From the NCBI GenBank assembly GCA_947303895.1, contig CAMYZQ010000003.1:1-39239 (forward strand): a stretch of 39,239 nt of DNA. Reading direction: 5' to 3'. The notes under the pieces are model-generated. The model was not told where the DNA came from, made no database searches, and saw only the letters and a list, made by a program, of their open reading frames with translations. This DNA comes from an uncultured Bacillota bacterium. GTDB taxonomy: Bacteria > Bacillota_I > Bacilli_A > RF39 > UBA660. Each line of letters opens with the position of its first letter. The stretch's first letter is position 1. The position numbers and the translations under genes are program-made. Positions 2,920 to 17,673 of this stretch are shown here, piece after piece.

Positions 2920-2943
2920 AAAACATCTTAACGATGTTTTTTT
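2917..2943. terminator. Bidirectional terminator between convergent genes
   Basis: AAAAACATC-TTAAC-GATGTTTTT. Confidence 0.75.
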
Positions 2944-3502
2944 ATTTGAATTTATCAATATTAATAATTGGTATTCTACGAGGTATATTAGGGTAGTATG
3001 TTGAAAATACCCAATCAACTGTAAATACTGTTATAAGTATTATTATTATAGTTAATAATACTTTTTTATTACATTTATCTATAATCTTTTTTACTGCAGG
3101 AACTAACATATAAATAACAATTAATCCTGATAAACCAAATGCTATAGAATATGGTAAACATATTTTACCATTAATATTAAATGGTTTATCTGTATAATTC
3201 CACCAAGACATACCATAAGTATATTCCATGTATGTACTTGTTAAATATTCAGATATAGTACATATAACAAAAGACCCCATAAATATAAACCACTTTTTAT
3301 CCCTATATTCATATAAAAGAATATATATTAAAAATGCTCCTGATCCATATATAGGAAGCCAAGGACCATGTAGTTGACCACAGTTCATGAAATTACCATT
3401 TTTCATAAACTCCCATAATATTTCCCAAAACCATCCTATAAAACAGCTAATTAGAAAAAGTAGGTTATATTCCATGAATTTATTTATTCCATTTTTTTTC
3501 AT
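2942..3502 (-). CDS. Putative ABC-transporter type IV / CmpB-like membrane protein (PF06541-like)
   Basis: Motifs FIGWFWEILWE, GPWLPIYGSGAFLIY, WWNYTDKPFNINGKICLPYS; the ORF-track extension to 3658 runs into tRNA-His, so ATG 3502 is preferred. Confidence 0.7.
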   Translation of the reverse strand: MKKNGINKFMEYNLLFLISCFIGWFWEILWEFMKNGNFMNCGQLHGPWLPIYGSGAFLIYILLYEYRDKKWFIFMGSFVICTISEYLTSTYMEYTYGMSWWNYTDKPFNINGKICLPYSIAFGLSGLIVIYMLVPAVKKIIDKCNKKVLLTIIIILITVFTVDWVFSTYYPNIPRRIPIINIDKFK

Positions 3503-3580
3503 GTAATCACCTATAAAAATTATATCATAAATTACTTGTATATTTAAAAAATATGTGTTATATTTAATAAGTAATTTCAT

Positions 3581-3657
3581 GGCGGAATTGGTGAAGTGGT
3601 TAACACGGCAGATTGTGGCTCTGTTATGCAAGGGTTCGACTCCCTTATTTCGCCCCA
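3581..3657 (+). tRNA. tRNA-His (GTG), with G-1 and encoded CCA
   Basis: Acceptor GCGGAAT/ATTTCGC, G-1 opposite C73, anticodon stem GCAGA/TCTGT, loop TTGTGGC, T-arm AAGGGTTCGACTCCCTT, CCA at the end. Confidence 0.95.
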
Positions 3658-3670
3658 TTTGGAAAATAAA

Positions 3671-4614: not shown

Positions 4615-4621
4615 AAAACAA

Positions 4622-4649
4622 TGTAGTAAAATTGTAGTATTTTTGTAGT
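4622..4649 (+). repeat. Three TGTAGT direct repeats with 11-bp periodicity, candidate operator
   Basis: TGTAGT at 4622, 4633 and 4644, directly upstream of the -35 at 4656. Confidence 0.55.
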
Positions 4650-4655
4650 TTTCTA

Positions 4656-4684
4656 TTGACAAGTATTTTTTGTGGTGTTATTAT
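4656..4684 (+). promoter_or_regulatory. sigma-A promoter of the RHH-Nudix operon
   Basis: TTGACA (4656-4661), N17, TATTAT (4679-4684). Confidence 0.8.
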
Positions 4685-4704: not shown

Positions 4705-5289
4705 ATGGCTAATAAAACTAGTGCTATTAATATTCAAGTAGATAGCGATGTTAAGCAAGATGCAACATTAGTGTTAACAGAATTAGGTTTATCAATGAGT
4801 TCTGCAATTAATTTGTTCTTAAAACAAGTAGTTAAGAAGAATGGACTTCCATTTGCAGTTACTAACGTAGTTGATACTAAAAAAATATTAGATGTAGTAT
4901 GTGCATTAATCATGAAAGATGGTAAATGTTTAATTGCTAAAAGAAACAAAGATGATCATCTAAAGGGTAGATGGGAATTTCCTGGCGGAAGAAGACAAGG
5001 TCTTGAAGATGAAAAGAAAACTCTAGAAAGAGCATTTAATGAGGTCCTTGGAATTAAAGCTAATATTAATGATTATTTAACTCATAGTATATGTGAATAT
5101 CCAGGTCATATAGTAGATCTTAAAATTTATGAATGTGATTATGTAAGTGGAGAATTTACATCTCCAATACACTCAGAATATAAATGGGTTAACATTGAAG
5201 AATTATTAGATTATGATTTAGCTGATGCTGACGTAATACTATCTAAATTTCTTATTAGAAAATATATTGAAGAAAGTAGGAATAAATAA
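4705..5289 (+). CDS. RelB/DinJ-type ribbon-helix-helix domain fused to a Nudix domain with degenerate Nudix box
   Basis: N-term MANKTSAINIQVDSDVKQDATLVLTELGLSMSSAINLFLKQVVKKNGLPFAV resembles DinJ/RelB; C-term GRWEFPGGRRQGLEDEKKTLERAFNEVLGI resembles Nudix; start at ATG 4705 with GAGGTGAGG SD. Confidence 0.85.
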   Translation: MANKTSAINIQVDSDVKQDATLVLTELGLSMSSAINLFLKQVVKKNGLPFAVTNVVDTKKILDVVCALIMKDGKCLIAKRNKDDHLKGRWEFPGGRRQGLEDEKKTLERAFNEVLGIKANINDYLTHSICEYPGHIVDLKIYECDYVSGEFTSPIHSEYKWVNIEELLDYDLADADVILSKFLIRKYIEESRNK

Positions 5290-5702
5290 TGAAAGTAGTA
5301 GAAGTAGTAGCAGCAGTTATAAAAAAAGATAATAAGATACTTGGAACTGCTAGAGGTTATGGATATTTTAAAGGTATGTGGGAGTTTCCAGGTGGAAAAC
5401 CAGAAGTTGGTGAAACAAAAGAAGAAGCTTTAGTCCGTGAAATTAAAGAAGAATTAAATGCTGATATTAAAGTAGAAGATTATATATGCACAGTAGAATA
5501 TGATTATACTAATCCTGATTTTCATTTAATAATGCATACTTATTTTTGTGAATTATTAAATGATCATATAGAGATGGTTTATCATGATGAAGAAAAGTTA
5601 GAACATGAATCAATGAAATGGCTTTCTAAAGAAGAATTAGACTCTGTTGAATGGCTTGGAGCAGATATAGAAATAGTTAATAAGTTAAAAGAATTATTGT
5701 AG
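5289..5702 (+). CDS. Nudix hydrolase (MutT-like)
   Basis: GGKPEVGETKEEALVREIKEEL Nudix box; start overlaps previous stop. Confidence 0.9.
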   Translation: MKVVEVVAAVIKKDNKILGTARGYGYFKGMWEFPGGKPEVGETKEEALVREIKEELNADIKVEDYICTVEYDYTNPDFHLIMHTYFCELLNDHIEMVYHDEEKLEHESMKWLSKEELDSVEWLGADIEIVNKLKELL

Positions 5703-5711
5703 GAGGGTTAT

Positions 5712-6032
5712 ATGGTTAACATAAAAGAATTACAAGATAAAGTATATCAAAACAAAGTAAATCATGGGTTTAATACAACAAATATAGAAATGGAATTTTG
5801 TTTAGCTTATGGAGAACTTGGTGAAGCATATATTGCATATTTAAAGAAGAAAGAAGACCTAGGAGAAGAATTAGCAGACGTTATTATATATCTTCTTGGA
5901 ATATCTAAAATGCTTAATATTGATTTAGAAAAAGAAGTAGTAAATAAAATAGAAAAGAATAGTAAGAGGGTTTATAAAGAAAATTCAAAAGGGGTTCTTG
6001 TAAAAGAAGAAGAACTAAACAGCGAGGTATAA
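5712..6032 (+). CDS. MazG-like nucleotide pyrophosphohydrolase
   Basis: ELGEAYIAYLKKKEDLGEELADVIIYLLG: ExxE...ExxD pattern. Confidence 0.75.
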   Translation: MVNIKELQDKVYQNKVNHGFNTTNIEMEFCLAYGELGEAYIAYLKKKEDLGEELADVIIYLLGISKMLNIDLEKEVVNKIEKNSKRVYKENSKGVLVKEEELNSEV

Positions 6033-6033
6033 A

Positions 6034-6774
6034 ATGAAAAACACAAAAAAATTTTTAGAATTAAAAACATTATTTGAAAATTTATCTTATGATGATTTAG
6101 AGTCACTTTATACATTACTTTCATTAACTGGTAAAATTGATGATGAATTTAGTGAAGCAATTGATTCAACATATTTTCCTATGTATAATAAACTTGCAGA
6201 ATCAGGAGAATTTGAAGGAAGAAATGAATATGATAATTTAACAAGATATCATAATTTTAGTCTTTCAAAAATAATGGATTTATTTAATCGAATGACAGAT
6301 ACACAATTAAATGAAATATGCAAACTTGTTGGTAAAGCATATGGTAAAATCCTTGAAGAATTAAAAACGAATGAGTGCTCAGGTAAAATTGAAATGCTTC
6401 CTAAATTAGATGAATTCATAAAGAGATTTAATAAAAGAAAAGAAGCTAAAGAAATACTTAAAAAGCTAAGTAGGAGTGATCAAGTGTTATTTGGGTCAGC
6501 ATTAGATTTATCAGTTGGATTTGATGTGGGTGATGAAAAAGAAGTATTAAGAAGAATTATTAGTGAATCTAAGTCTAACAAGACGGGAAAACTAAACAAT
6601 AAACAGCTATATCATATTCATAATATAACAAGTAGCGCTTTAGGGGTTTTAAATTTAGAGGTGTTTGAAGATTTAACATATCAAAGAAGTTTAATAGAAG
6701 AATTTAATGGAAGAGTAAGTAAAGAAATAGAAAATAGAAAAGCGGGTAAAGGTGCTAAAACTTTAACTCCATAA
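6034..6774 (+). CDS. Hypothetical helical protein, last gene of the Nudix operon
   Basis: ORF begins 2 bp after the upstream stop; terminator follows. Confidence 0.7.
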   Translation: MKNTKKFLELKTLFENLSYDDLESLYTLLSLTGKIDDEFSEAIDSTYFPMYNKLAESGEFEGRNEYDNLTRYHNFSLSKIMDLFNRMTDTQLNEICKLVGKAYGKILEELKTNECSGKIEMLPKLDEFIKRFNKRKEAKEILKKLSRSDQVLFGSALDLSVGFDVGDEKEVLRRIISESKSNKTGKLNNKQLYHIHNITSSALGVLNLEVFEDLTYQRSLIEEFNGRVSKEIENRKAGKGAKTLTP

Positions 6775-10884: not shown

Positions 10885-13800
10885 ATGGAAAAGATTAAAA
10901 AAGGTTTTTGGAAAACCATTGATTTTATTTATAAACACAAAGTAATAGCATTCATTATAGCTTTTACTATAGCAACTTCATTTATTCTATATGGCGTATT
11001 TGCTACAGATGATGAATATGAAAATAAATTAAAGATCAAAGAAAATAGTGCTGTAATTAAAACTATTACAGATGCTCATGCAGAACTTGATGCTGATACT
11101 GATACTCATGGTAAAGATGCATCTGCTTCTAATGGAGTACTTAGAAACTTTGATAGTATTACATATAATGTAGAATATGTTTTAGACCATAAGACTGAAA
11201 CATTAACTACTCCAATAGAAGGTAGAAATGTTGTTGTAGACGTTATTGTTCCAAAGAATATTAATGCTACATTAACATCTACTGGTGGTGATGGTAGTAT
11301 TACTACTAAGACTTTGGGAGACAATTATAACTATTTCCATTTTGAAATGCATAATATTCCTACATCTAGTACATTAAGTCCATCATCATTTAGTTTTACT
11401 TTAGAAAATGTTAATACTCAAACTGTTGGTGCTAGCTTTACTCCAATAATTCTTATGAAGGAAGCTACAGATTCAGATAGTAAATCAATTGATGAATTAA
11501 CTCCAGATGAAAAAGAAGCATTTGCTGCTAATCCTGCAGGAAATGTTACTTGCCCTAATACTGTTACTAACTGTTTAACTACAATGACAGGTACATATAA
11601 TTATGATGTTGAGGTATATCAAGGAGCTCCTTTAACTGATAGTGTTGGACAAAAAACTTATCCAATAGGTGTTGGTGTTAAAGTTGAAAAGACTGTTGGT
11701 ATTTATGTTCCATCTAGTGTTTCATTCAACGTTAACTGGGCTTCAGAAGATGCTAGTGTATTAAATCTTCAATATGTTGAAGATTCTATGGCAGCATATA
11801 AAGACCCTTCAAAACAATATGCAATTTTCTATGATGGTATTAATGAATTACCAACATTAGGTAATACACTTACATTTGAAAATAATTTATTAACTATTAG
11901 TAGTTTAAAATATGATGGTAATACTTCGTTTGTAGGTTCTGCTTCATTTGAATTAAAGGCAGGAAGATCTGCAACTGATAGAAATGATAGAACATTTAAT
12001 GTGGCTGCAACTAACCTTGTTGTTCCTGGAACAGATTATTCTAAATTACAAGGTGGAGCTGTTACAGTTACAGATTATTATGAAAAATTTGTTGGAAGCT
12101 TTGCTTCACAAGTTGATATATATGCTGGTGAAGTATCTAAAGATCCTGGAGATGCAACTCCATTAGTTCCTGGTAATGCATACTTAAACTATAATCAAAG
12201 ATTTAGAGTAGTAGAAACTATTGCTTATGCTACTGATGGTAAAGGTGATGACTTATCAGAATTAGATAACTATATTAAAATTGATCCTACTGCATTCTTA
12301 ATTACTAAAGAAGATAGTGGTATAGTTGGTGCTCCAATGGCTAGTTTAAAATATGGTCAAGGTGAGTGGACGTCTGAATACTTTGATTTAACTGGTGTTG
12401 CTGGTTGCCCTACATCATTTAATGGATTAACTACAGAAAATATTATGAATCTATATGGTGGACCATGTATAGTTGAAAAGACCGGAGAAAATAGTCCATT
12501 TGTATGGAGTTTACAAGATGAAGATACATCTGATCTTCCAATAATAATTGTTAAAGCTATATTTGGTGATCAAACTTCTGATGAGATGAATGCTAATGCT
12601 TCATTAACAGCTAAAGTATCTTTAGCAGGCAAAATTAGAAAGAACCAAATTGGTTTAATTGATCATTCATATCAAATATCTACTTTATCAACAGGATACT
12701 TTAAGAATCCTCAAACTAATAATTTAGATTTATATTATTTATCAAAGAATATTAATACTAGTGATGTTACTAATGCTAAGAATGCTAATAACTATGTAAA
12801 GAGTAATTATAGTTTTGAAAATAGATTCTTAATTGCTAATAATAGTAATCCATGTAATGGTGAAGCATTATGTAATATCTCAGGTGATACAGTTCATATT
12901 ATGGGATTTAGAGTTAATAATCCTTCAGTAGTATCATACTTTAATAATTATCCTAAAACTTCATTCTATGATTATCCAATTGAATGGAGAATTCAAGTAA
13001 GTGCATCTTCTGATATAGATACTATTGAGTATGATCATGCAGCAATTGCTGTTACTATTCCTAAAACATTAAATTATTTATATGCAGAAATCTTAGTAAC
13101 TAATGGTGATAGTTCTAAGAGAATGGAAAAAACACCATCTAGAGTTATAGATGATGATCCTGGATATACAATTTATGTATATGATTTTGCTAAAGATGAA
13201 ATAACTAATGGAACTGTTAATACATTATCTATATTCACAGATATATTCATGAATACTAAGTCAGGAACACAAGTTCAAGTTAGTGCATCTGCTGATATGG
13301 AAGGATATATAGTTGATAATAGTGATATTCATAGAATATTAGATAATAGAACAACTAATCCATATAAGACTACAACTTCTGATACTATTACACTATATAA
13401 CAGTGCTTATATTAGTACATTTGGTAATGCTGCTCCAAGATATATTGAAAAAGCAGAACCATATACTTATACTATGAAAGCTTATAATAATTCAAGTGAT
13501 ACAAGTAATGCAGGCTATGCTTATGAAAATGCAACATTATATTATATGCTTCCATATATTGAAGATTATAACTATAAGTCATATAACAAGAAGTTTACTA
13601 ATGCTACTTATAAAGTTAAGATTAATGATAATTTAACTGGTTATACAGCATACTATACAACTGATACTGCTACTAACGTAATTAGTGATATTAATAATTT
13701 AACTAATTCTGATAATGCTACTAACTGGACTAAATGGACTAATCCAACTACTGAAGTAGAAGCTACAGCTGTTAAGATTGTTAAAGATGAAAACTGGGAT

Positions 13801-15012
13801 ATTGATACATACTTTGTTTCTGAAAACGGAGTTAATGTTATTGTTACACCAGTTAAGAATGCTCAAGCTGATGCATATTATAATGGATTTACTTTAGCAG
13901 TTGATAGACCTGCTGGATTTGCTCCTGAATGTGATGGAAGATATGATGAAGATCCAGAAAGACCATGTGATCCAAATGCATTAAGTAGAAGAATATTCTT
14001 CTATTCATCAGAATCACTTGTAGAAGTTTATAGTAGACAAATATCTGGATTTGTATTTGAAGATTATAACTATAGTGATATCTATGAAGTTGGTGAAGAC
14101 CAAATGAAGGATATAGTAGTAGAGTTATATAAATTAAATAATAATGAATATAATCCTGATGATGCAGCAAATCCAAATGCATATATTAATTCTGAAAATG
14201 ATGAATTAATAGCTACTACATCAACAGATGCTAATGGTTCATATATATTTACTGGATTAAATACAGGTAACTATTATGTATTATTTAGATATGATGGTAA
14301 TAAATATACACCAAGTAATAAATATGCTGGTGGAGAAAGTAATAGACAAGTTAATTCTAAGTCTATAGCTAAGAATCAAGCTGATAATGAAGCTGTTTCT
14401 GATATTCTTACATTAACTAGTCAAAATGGTTCTGAAAATAAGAATTATATAAACTTAGGATTAAGAATTAGAAAAGACTTTGCTGTAGAAATTAACAAGT
14501 ATATAACTAATATTGTTCAAACATCTAGTCAAGGTGTTAAGACATATGAATATGAAAAGGCTACTAAAGTTAATATAGATATTAGAAATATAAGAAATAC
14601 TAAATTTAGAGTAACTTATAGTTTTGATATAGTTAATACTAAATACTTCCCAGGTTATATTGGAATAATTGCTGACTTAGTTCCAGCAGGTATGACATTT
14701 GATGGAAGTTTAGAAGAAAATAAAGACTGGACAATTTATGATGGAGTTTTATATTATACAGGACTTCAAGATAAATTATTATTACCAGGAGATAGACAAT
14801 ACTTTAAATTAGTACTTGATTTAGATACTAATACAGGTGGAACATATACTAATATAGTAGCTGCTCAACAACCTATATTAATGGGTGAAAAAACATCTGG
14901 TGTTGATTTTAATTCAATTACATTTGAAGATGCTAATCCAGTAGAAACAACTGATCCTAATACTGGTACTGATACAGGTAATACTGGATCACAAGGAAAT
15001 AACGGAGAGTAG
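10885..15012 (+). CDS. Large surface/adhesin-like protein with SdrD-B-like domain
   Basis: N-terminal TM; SGFVFEDYNYSDIYEVGEDQMKDIVVELYKL...TTSTDANGSYIFTGLNTGNYYVLF; Gly/Asn/Thr-rich C-terminus without TM. Confidence 0.75.
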   Translation: MEKIKKGFWKTIDFIYKHKVIAFIIAFTIATSFILYGVFATDDEYENKLKIKENSAVIKTITDAHAELDADTDTHGKDASASNGVLRNFDSITYNVEYVLDHKTETLTTPIEGRNVVVDVIVPKNINATLTSTGGDGSITTKTLGDNYNYFHFEMHNIPTSSTLSPSSFSFTLENVNTQTVGASFTPIILMKEATDSDSKSIDELTPDEKEAFAANPAGNVTCPNTVTNCLTTMTGTYNYDVEVYQGAPLTDSVGQKTYPIGVGVKVEKTVGIYVPSSVSFNVNWASEDASVLNLQYVEDSMAAYKDPSKQYAIFYDGINELPTLGNTLTFENNLLTISSLKYDGNTSFVGSASFELKAGRSATDRNDRTFNVAATNLVVPGTDYSKLQGGAVTVTDYYEKFVGSFASQVDIYAGEVSKDPGDATPLVPGNAYLNYNQRFRVVETIAYATDGKGDDLSELDNYIKIDPTAFLITKEDSGIVGAPMASLKYGQGEWTSEYFDLTGVAGCPTSFNGLTTENIMNLYGGPCIVEKTGENSPFVWSLQDEDTSDLPIIIVKAIFGDQTSDEMNANASLTAKVSLAGKIRKNQIGLIDHSYQISTLSTGYFKNPQTNNLDLYYLSKNINTSDVTNAKNANNYVKSNYSFENRFLIANNSNPCNGEALCNISGDTVHIMGFRVNNPSVVSYFNNYPKTSFYDYPIEWRIQVSASSDIDTIEYDHAAIAVTIPKTLNYLYAEILVTNGDSSKRMEKTPSRVIDDDPGYTIYVYDFAKDEITNGTVNTLSIFTDIFMNTKSGTQVQVSASADMEGYIVDNSDIHRILDNRTTNPYKTTTSDTITLYNSAYISTFGNAAPRYIEKAEPYTYTMKAYNNSSDTSNAGYAYENATLYYMLPYIEDYNYKSYNKKFTNATYKVKINDNLTGYTAYYTTDTATNVISDINNLTNSDNATNWTKWTNPTTEVEATAVKIVKDENWDIDTYFVSENGVNVIVTPVKNAQADAYYNGFTLAVDRPAGFAPECDGRYDEDPERPCDPNALSRRIFFYSSESLVEVYSRQISGFVFEDYNYSDIYEVGEDQMKDIVVELYKLNNNEYNPDDAANPNAYINSENDELIATTSTDANGSYIFTGLNTGNYYVLFRYDGNKYTPSNKYAGGESNRQVNSKSIAKNQADNEAVSDILTLTSQNGSENKNYINLGLRIRKDFAVEINKYITNIVQTSSQGVKTYEYEKATKVNIDIRNIRNTKFRVTYSFDIVNTKYFPGYIGIIADLVPAGMTFDGSLEENKDWTIYDGVLYYTGLQDKLLLPGDRQYFKLVLDLDTNTGGTYTNIVAAQQPILMGEKTSGVDFNSITFEDANPVETTDPNTGTDTGNTGSQGNNGE

Positions 15013-15021
15013 GTGATTAGT

Positions 15022-17673
15022 ATGAAGAAGAAAAAATTACTATATGCCTTAGTCTTATTATTAGTGATTGCTATACCATTTACTGTTGTATTTGGTAAGA
15101 AAGCAGGATTAAACTTTAATTTCTTATCGAAATTAATGGGTAGTCCTGCTCAGGTAGTCTCTAATACATATAGATATAATAATGTATCATTTTCTATGAA
15201 AGATATATGGGATTCTGAGTCTACTCCTACATTCTATATAGGACCAAATGAACATACAGGTATATTAAGATTACAATATATACACGAGGCTCAATCATCT
15301 GATGGAAAATATTATCATGCTTATTGTATAGATAGAGGTATTTCTATAGATGATGAAGGTCATCCTTATATGGATGCATATGTTTATGATGATAATTTTG
15401 AAGGTTTAACTTCTAAAAATATTGATGGAGAAGTTACTGCTACACTTACTGCAGAACAAATTGAAACTCTTCAAGATATCTTAGCTTCAGGATATCATTA
15501 TTCTGAAGACCATACAAAATCAATTGATAGGATTAGTACTAGAGCAGAAAAAGAAAAAATATTTGTTAAACAAATACTTGTTTGGGAAGTAATGGGTGGA
15601 GGAAGAACTGGATTACAAGATGTTCCTGAAGCTTGTTCTATGGCTTCCAACTGTTCATATAATGTTATTATTTCTCCAAAGAGTAATTTACTTAGAGAAT
15701 ATAAAGCTGCTCTTCAAGCTGCTAGAGAGTATAGAAGTAAAAGAAAAGCTGAAGATACTTATGCTCCAGCACTATTCAAAAACTATACTATGAGATGGGA
15801 TTCAAAACAACAAAAGTATACAACAGGTGTTATTAGTAATGCACTTGGTGGATTTACTTCTAACTGCCATCCTGTAGATAATGATAATGTACAAGTATCT
15901 GTATCTAATGACCATGCTACAGTTACTTCAACTGTACCTGTTAATAATGTAACTATTAATTGTAGTTATGTTGTTGGTAGTGGTACAAGTAAATGGTGGT
16001 ATTATGATTTCCCTGAACATAAATGGTGGCAAAGAATTGTTAATGGTGAAGGTGGTTCAACACATACTGCATCGTTTACTGTAGGAACTGAAGAAGCACA
16101 ATTATATATTGTTAAATATAATCAAGAAGGATCTAGAATTAATGGTTCTAAATTTACTTTAACGTTAAAGAATGATCCGTCTGTTAAGATTAATATTAAT
16201 GGAGATACTAGTAAAGTATCATTAGAAAGAAGTGGTGTATATATTCTTACTGAAACTGATACACCATTTGGATATGATACAATCCATCAAACAGAGTTAA
16301 ATATTAATCTAAATACTAGATCTATTAGTTCATCTAATACAGGTGAAGTACAAGCAACATTTAATGATAATGAACATGCTTTTGAAGTTAAAGTAGTTGA
16401 TAATTATAAAGCATTTAATATTAGTAAGGTTAATGAAAGTAATCAACCATTAAAAGGCGTTACATTCAAGATTTATAAAGGATCTAACTTTAATACTGAA
16501 GTTAAGTTTAATAAGAGTAACAATGTGTATAGTTATTCTACTAATGGAAGTGTTTCAAGTATTGTAGACAATAATTATTCTACATATACAATTAGATTCC
16601 TAGAACAAGGTATTTATAAAGTAGTTGAAACTGATACTCCTAGTCCATATGTACTAGCTTCTAAAGAAGAAGATAGATCACATTATATTAAAGTAGGAGA
16701 TAAATACGATATATTTGATTGTAAGAATGATTCTACATGTAAGAATGCATCTTTAACTGTTAATAATACATTAACATTTAAGAACTATATAACTAAAGTT
16801 AATATTATTAAAACTGGTAATGGAGGTCTTCCTTTAGCAGGTGTTAAATTTGTATTATTAAATGAAGGAAAAGATAAGTATTATAAAGCAAGTAGTAATA
16901 ATGGAGTATATCAATATTCTGGAACTGCTAATGAAATAAGTGGTGCTACAGTATTTATTACTGATTCTAATGGTAATATTAGAATTAATAGTCTTCCTGT
17001 TGGAACATACTATATAAAAGAAATAGAAACTATTGATCCATATGTATTACCTGAAGGTGATGCGGCTTATACTAAGTTAGTAGTAGATATGAAATCTAAC
17101 GGACCTACTGTTAATAACAAAACATCATGTTCAGAAGGTATTTCTAATGCTACTAAAGAGTTTAACTTCTATAAAGTAGATGAAAATGGTAATTACTTAT
17201 CTGGTGGAAAATTCAAGATTCAAAGATTTAATGATGATACTAATAAATATGAAGATATTAAACTAGTATCTGTAGAAAATGAAGGTCAATATCAAGAAAA
17301 AGCAAATGTATTTAAAGAAGATGAAGATGGTAAAGTTCAATTTACTTTATCTCATGGTATTGCTACATTTGTAGATATGACTCCAGGAACTACATATAGA
17401 ATACTTGAAATTGAAGCTCCTAAAGGATATGAACTTGCTAATGTAGATAATAGTGCAGTTATTAAACTAGATAGAAAAGGTTATGCTAAAGGATCTGCTA
17501 CTATTATTAACCAAACTAAGAAATTAGAGGGCTCTACTGCACAAGCTGAATTAATAATAGAAATTCAAACTGGTAGAAAACTAATTAGATATGGTTTAAT
17601 TATTGCAGGTACATTAATTCTTATTGCAGGATTAATGATTGCATTAATATATATATCAAAAAAGAGAAAATAA
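15022..17673 (+). CDS. Surface adhesin: N-terminal thioester-domain (TED)-like region, CnaB/SpaA-like repeats, C-terminal TM
   Basis: Signal peptide; AYCIDRG and VKQILVW motifs; repeated KV/L..G..F.I / GxYxxxETxTPxxY CnaB patterns; C-terminal TM plus KKRK. Confidence 0.78.
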   Translation: MKKKKLLYALVLLLVIAIPFTVVFGKKAGLNFNFLSKLMGSPAQVVSNTYRYNNVSFSMKDIWDSESTPTFYIGPNEHTGILRLQYIHEAQSSDGKYYHAYCIDRGISIDDEGHPYMDAYVYDDNFEGLTSKNIDGEVTATLTAEQIETLQDILASGYHYSEDHTKSIDRISTRAEKEKIFVKQILVWEVMGGGRTGLQDVPEACSMASNCSYNVIISPKSNLLREYKAALQAAREYRSKRKAEDTYAPALFKNYTMRWDSKQQKYTTGVISNALGGFTSNCHPVDNDNVQVSVSNDHATVTSTVPVNNVTINCSYVVGSGTSKWWYYDFPEHKWWQRIVNGEGGSTHTASFTVGTEEAQLYIVKYNQEGSRINGSKFTLTLKNDPSVKININGDTSKVSLERSGVYILTETDTPFGYDTIHQTELNINLNTRSISSSNTGEVQATFNDNEHAFEVKVVDNYKAFNISKVNESNQPLKGVTFKIYKGSNFNTEVKFNKSNNVYSYSTNGSVSSIVDNNYSTYTIRFLEQGIYKVVETDTPSPYVLASKEEDRSHYIKVGDKYDIFDCKNDSTCKNASLTVNNTLTFKNYITKVNIIKTGNGGLPLAGVKFVLLNEGKDKYYKASSNNGVYQYSGTANEISGATVFITDSNGNIRINSLPVGTYYIKEIETIDPYVLPEGDAAYTKLVVDMKSNGPTVNNKTSCSEGISNATKEFNFYKVDENGNYLSGGKFKIQRFNDDTNKYEDIKLVSVENEGQYQEKANVFKEDEDGKVQFTLSHGIATFVDMTPGTTYRILEIEAPKGYELANVDNSAVIKLDRKGYAKGSATIINQTKKLEGSTAQAELIIEIQTGRKLIRYGLIIAGTLILIAGLMIALIYISKKRK

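Follow-up and report, generated by a model that had tools for sequence, protein, structure and literature searches.

A DinJ-type RHH domain joined to a degenerate Nudix domain: a candidate nucleotide-sensing autoregulator of a nucleotide pyrophosphatase operon

In an uncultured Bacillota bacterium, a single open frame of 194 aa (4705..5289 on the forward strand of the 39,239-nucleotide stretch analysed here, the window) joins an RHH domain of the type found in DinJ antitoxins to a Nudix domain in which two of the catalytic glutamates are replaced. We consider it probable, at a likelihood of about 0.7, that this fusion is a one-component, autoregulating and nucleotide-sensing transcription factor, composed of an antitoxin-derived RHH domain and a Nudix domain acting as a non-hydrolysing sensor.

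In the mechanism that we propose, the RHH domain would dimerise and bind the array of three TTGTAGTA repeats at 4621-4648, next to the -35 box of the fusion's promoter, and RHH dimers filling these repeats would hinder RNA polymerase at the adjoining -35 box, such that the operon, encoding the fusion, MutT-like and MazG-like pyrophosphatases and a helical protein, would most likely be repressed. The Nudix domain, with hydrolysis apparently lost and a NudG-like nucleotide cleft kept, would take the role of sensor. Binding of a nucleoside triphosphate, probably a modified or excess pyrimidine, could then change the geometry of the RHH dimer or of the array, and the clean-up enzymes would be produced when needed.

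If true, this would represent a second, independent invention of a Nudix-sensor regulator and also the domestication of a toxin-antitoxin repressor, in which the DNA-binding domain and its operator survived and the toxin and the toxin-binding tail were replaced by a metabolite sensor. This evolutionary step is testable, because the operator is common to present-day DinJ-YafQ modules. As a genetically encoded sensor, the fusion is likewise a candidate for the detection of damaged or modified nucleotides, signals for which, to our knowledge, few repressors are known.

Domain architecture, distribution and selection

The N-terminal part of the protein (residues 1 to about 58; 4705..4878) belongs by curated cut-offs to the RelB/DinJ family of RHH domains, matching both PF04221 (RelB; residues 6-59, E 1.7e-11, 44.3 bits against a curated cut-off of 22.4) and TIGR02384 (RelB_DinJ; residues 2-56, E 1.8e-17, 63.4 bits against 45.65). 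Its N-terminal strand reads SAINIQVD, the corresponding strand in DinJ antitoxins of the same order being SAINVQVD. The remainder (residues 59-194; 4879..5286) is a NudG/MutT-like Nudix domain, non-catalytic by sequence. It matches NUDIX_4 (residues 65-176, E 1.6e-14), and its best Nudix model is NF007834, the NudG-type pyrimidine nucleotide diphosphatase (residues 60-183, E 1.6e-25), at a score below the equivalog cut-off. The HMM matches reveal no third domain. An earlier note on this DNA, made from the letters alone, had described one uninterrupted frame carrying a DinJ-like RHH domain and a Nudix fold; the HMM search that it proposed bears this description out.

The same note had suggested searching for other RHH-Nudix fusions and had raised the concern that a sequencing error might have created this one. 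A scan of the genome collection found 17 further loci of the same architecture at 80-98% identity, and the genomes that carry the fusion are those of uncultured Bacilli-type organisms, mainly from gut and rumen. When the 18 fusions are aligned, the mean column identity is 87%; pairwise dN/dS is about 0.07-0.10, with medians of 0.07 in the RHH part and 0.09 in the Nudix part. Such low values indicate purifying selection on the protein, so that both parts matter, and together with the 17 further loci they rule out a sequencing error or a chance fusion.

The distribution is narrow. Six of 288 genomes of the order contain the fusion, and outside this bacterial family none was found among 395 genomes of the class (E 1e-15) or 392 of the phylum (E 1e-22), the remaining matches in both scans being Nudix-only or RHH-only proteins. 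A phage or plasmid origin was also considered and rejected, the fusion having no match in viral contigs or in phage and plasmid records; the operator, too, was not found in viral contigs.

An operator shared with DinJ-YafQ modules

The candidate operator, ATGTAGTA-AAA-TTGTAGTA-TTT-TTGTAG, comprises three repeats at 11-bp spacing (4621..4648, forward strand). It is followed on the same strand by a sigma-70-type promoter, TTGACA-17-TATTAT (4656..4684), which with 11/12 matches is the best in the region and whose -35 hexamer begins 8 bases past the last repeat base, leaving a gap of 7 bp. Because the operator ends at this distance upstream of the -35 box, the bound protein could possibly activate instead of repressing. 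The position of the -10 hexamer (4679-4684), downstream of a GTG at 4672, also shows that this GTG is not the start of the fusion.

Within the window the operator pattern has 2 overlapping matches against 0.06 expected. The three repeats stand, near-invariant, upstream of the -35 box in 18/18 loci, and the sequence that precedes them is unalignable across these loci, the flanks having diverged. A search of the order's 288 genomes for the combined operator-promoter pattern, allowing at most one mismatch, gives nine occurrences. Six of these come from the fusion genomes, one per genome; the other three, one each in G056, G170 and G232, immediately precede the gene of a stand-alone DinJ-like antitoxin, behind which a YafQ toxin gene follows. 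G237 is a fourth such genome, having three repeats with a weaker -35 box ahead of the stand-alone DinJ of a DinJ-YafQ pair. The exact full three-repeat pattern is confined to the fusion genomes among the 395 of the class.

That this operator accompanies the same type of RHH domain, with or without a Nudix domain, is the strongest indication that the RHH domain would bind the repeats. The earlier note had proposed an RHH-Nudix nucleotide-responsive repressor, and the DNA-binding half of that proposal is well supported by an operator that is both conserved and found before DinJ-YafQ antitoxin operons.

The regulon seems to consist of one operon. There is one intergenic three-repeat site per genome, additional sites with one or two mismatches are no commoner than those of a reversed control pattern, and in G000 the only further site with two exact repeats falls within a YqgF-like gene. 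With a single operon as regulon, the signal is not pinned by other target genes.

The likeness to the DinJ-YafQ type II toxin-antitoxin module thus embraces both the RHH domain and the three-repeat operator within the same bacterial order, and the fusion's RHH domain, 59-63% identical to the DinJ of the operator-bearing pairs, has these antitoxins among its closest RHH relatives. Such resemblance would be compatible with the fusion being an antitoxin still, either acting against a toxin encoded elsewhere or itself sequestering a nucleotide, the alternative that the earlier note had offered. We regard this as highly improbable, since the C-terminal toxin-binding tail of DinJ is absent, its place being taken from residue ~59 by the Nudix domain, and since no toxin gene adjoins the fusion in any of the 18 loci, the fusion being accompanied instead by an operon of nucleotide pyrophosphatases. 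Furthermore, YafQ was detected in none of the six fusion genomes searched, as against 4/4 DinJ genomes, an absence slightly weakened by the completeness of two of the six fusion assemblies (71% and 87%; the other four exceed 90%). The shared operator and the lack of YafQ point rather to reuse of the DNA-binding domain and operator of an antitoxin, the toxin-binding tail having apparently given way to a Nudix domain of the non-catalytic kind.

Another DinJ-like antitoxin, of the type that elsewhere bears the operator, is found at 1489-1785 of a further locus (L027, genome G190), behind a pair of genes that look AbiEi/AbiEii-like by eye; it lacks repeats of its own and has no YafQ-like ORF behind it, and so has the appearance of an orphan antitoxin.

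A Nudix domain with a degenerate box and a conserved cleft

The Nudix box of the window's fusion, GRRQGLEDEKKTLERAFNEVLGI (4987..5055, forward strand), retains G95, E101, R109, E113 and G116, and has A110 and V114 where glutamates are expected (E16 to A and E20 to V in box numbering). The earlier note's reading of the box, with RE changed to RA, the last E to V, and G1, E7, R15, E19 and G22 kept, is exact. In the alignment E16, which by position corresponds to E53 of MutT, is A or S in 18/18 fusions, and E20 is lost in 17 of them, L047 being the one that retains it. E7 and R15 are kept throughout and E19 in 17/18 (D in L047); G22 is not conserved among the fusions (11/18). None of the 18 has the intact GX5EX7REUXEEXGU box, and so the homologues with intact boxes that would have spoken against the earlier proposal are missing from the family. 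The 18 closest solo relatives, on the other hand, all retain the full E-R-E-E-E set, including E16 and E20.

Outside the box, the alignment shows 33 positions that are equally conserved in fusions and solo relatives, among them W90-E-F-P-G-G95, H156, E158, Y159, Y170-D-L172 and A175-D176; by our own residue count, the aspartate D176 corresponds in alignment to D118 of NudG. When 73 Nudix domains are placed in a tree, the fusions fall into a single clade (100/100 support) on a long stem, nested within solo NudG-like proteins from the same bacterial family, which suggests a single origin from NudG-like solo enzymes.

The structure prediction called for by the earlier note also yields a Nudix fold. 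In an AlphaFold2 model built from a wider alignment, which replaced one built from the 18 near-identical fusions only (pLDDT 56), the mean pLDDT is about 80 and the Nudix part lies mostly above 90; the RHH part is of low confidence, as is to be expected when a dimeric fold is modelled as a monomer. The best solved structural matches are BdRppH, NudG/Orf135, and MutT2 with dCTP or 5-methyl-dCTP.

The retention of E7, R15, E19 and the substrate cleft, and of E20 in L047, might be taken to indicate a working hydrolase of altered chemistry, in which the RHH domain merely autoregulates its own synthesis, and some weak catalysis may indeed be conceivable. As a reading of the family as a whole, this is nevertheless very unlikely, given the substitution of E16 in every fusion and the loss of E20 in all but one, when every solo relative has both, and given that half of the loci encode an intact MutT-like enzyme alongside. 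The pattern appears instead to be that of an enzyme turned into a binding domain, as in NrtR and AraR.

A PADLOC label attached to this region, PDC-S07, was taken as a generic Nudix match, since it matches the fusion and the neighbouring MutT-like protein equally.

Relation to known Nudix proteins

Regulators that sense through a Nudix domain are already known from the NrtR kind; what would be new here is an independent assembly from toxin-antitoxin parts, with the history of the operator still visible. NrtR and AraR have impaired Nudix boxes, and the domain is used for ligand binding (PMC4666351); MsNrtR is described as an auto-repressor (PMC6800001). With NrtR, AraR and NdnR the fusion shares the one-component organisation and a Nudix box that has lost glutamates, metabolite sensing being a property of the NrtR family (PMC4666351). 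The layout is different: NrtR has an N-terminal Nudix domain and a C-terminal winged helix-turn-helix, whereas in the fusion an N-terminal RHH domain precedes the Nudix domain. Operator and operon differ as well, and the fusion's Nudix domain is NudG/MutT-like by both HMM and structure, with NrtR absent among the matches listed for it by either method.

The fusion also resembles the pyrimidine nucleotide diphosphatases NudG (Orf135) and MutT2, which provide the best HMM and structural matches and share the WEF motif, the cleft aspartate and the fold; it departs from them in lacking two Nudix-box glutamates and in being joined to a DNA-binding domain. We found no RHH-Nudix regulator in the literature searched, although such an absence is no proof.

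The operon and its genomic surroundings

Downstream of the fusion, on the same strand, follow three genes. The first (5289..5702) encodes an intact Nudix hydrolase (MutT/NudG-like, box EREEE) and is found in 9/18 loci; in the window its start overlaps the stop of the fusion (TAATG, 5286-5291), which suggests translational coupling. The second (5712..6032), present downstream in 18/18 loci, encodes a MazG-like NTP pyrophosphatase with an ExxE...ExxD motif (PF12643, 3.8e-6). The third (6034..6774) encodes a fast-evolving helical protein, of family F2 in 14 loci and of family F4 in the other four; the two families are remotely related (hhalign probability 94%), and one or the other occurs in all 18. 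These helical proteins range from 101 to 413 aa, with apparently repeated units, for example at 4613-5260 in L035 and 4906-5388 in L038.

Together with the loss of glutamates throughout the family and the preserved cleft, this complement of nucleotide pyrophosphatases lends indirect support to the sensing half of the nucleotide-responsive repressor. The constant MazG-like partner is also consistent with a different possibility, namely an autoregulator without ligand, in which the RHH domain sets the level of the operon and the dead Nudix domain stabilises the dimer or engages a protein partner: the Nudix domain could, for example, bind the operon's MutT or MazG, whose free level would be read as in the conditional cooperativity of toxin-antitoxin systems. 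Nudix domains that lack catalytic activity can bind small molecules or else other protein domains (PMC5389931), and control by a protein partner is plausible from the antitoxin ancestry. We nonetheless judge this unlikely, as the cleft residues are identical to those of active-looking solo enzymes and would be needless in a pure scaffold, and we retain the nucleotide-sensing transcription factor as the preferred reading.

As to the nucleotide that would be sensed, NudG acts on modified pyrimidine nucleotides related to 5-OH-dCTP, and we infer that a modified or excess pyrimidine nucleotide would be the first candidate ligand. The MazG-like enzyme points in the same direction, because mycobacterial MazG hydrolyses 5-OH-dCTP (PMC3855555).

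The genes upstream of the fusion operon vary between most loci, and a tRNA gene lies shortly upstream of the operon in the window (3582-3657) and in L034 (3766-3841), L035 (2504-2579), L041 (3793-3869) and L043 (3219-3295), being tRNA-His in three of these five loci and tRNA-Glu in two, with different intervening genes. The varying upstream genes and the several tRNA-gene sites suggest that the operon is mobile as a single unit, and the tRNA-side location may be an integration hot spot, with the operon carried as an islet. A more specific version of the sensor reading is tentative and, taken as a whole, unlikely. In this version a former type II antitoxin would act as a repressor engaged in nucleotide surveillance: it would detect abnormal pyrimidine nucleotides, either oxidised dCTP or dCTP with phage-type modifications, and in response induce a clean-up operon of MazG and Nudix enzymes, the whole having spread as a small mobile islet.

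Two further observations concern the window itself. A long ORF on the reverse strand (2942-3658) starts inside the tRNA-His gene (3582-3658), and its real start must therefore be further in. At 10885-17673 there are two tandem genes for large surface proteins of 1375 and 886 aa, with SdrD/Cna-B-like repeats recognised by eye, probably a pilin or adhesin pair.
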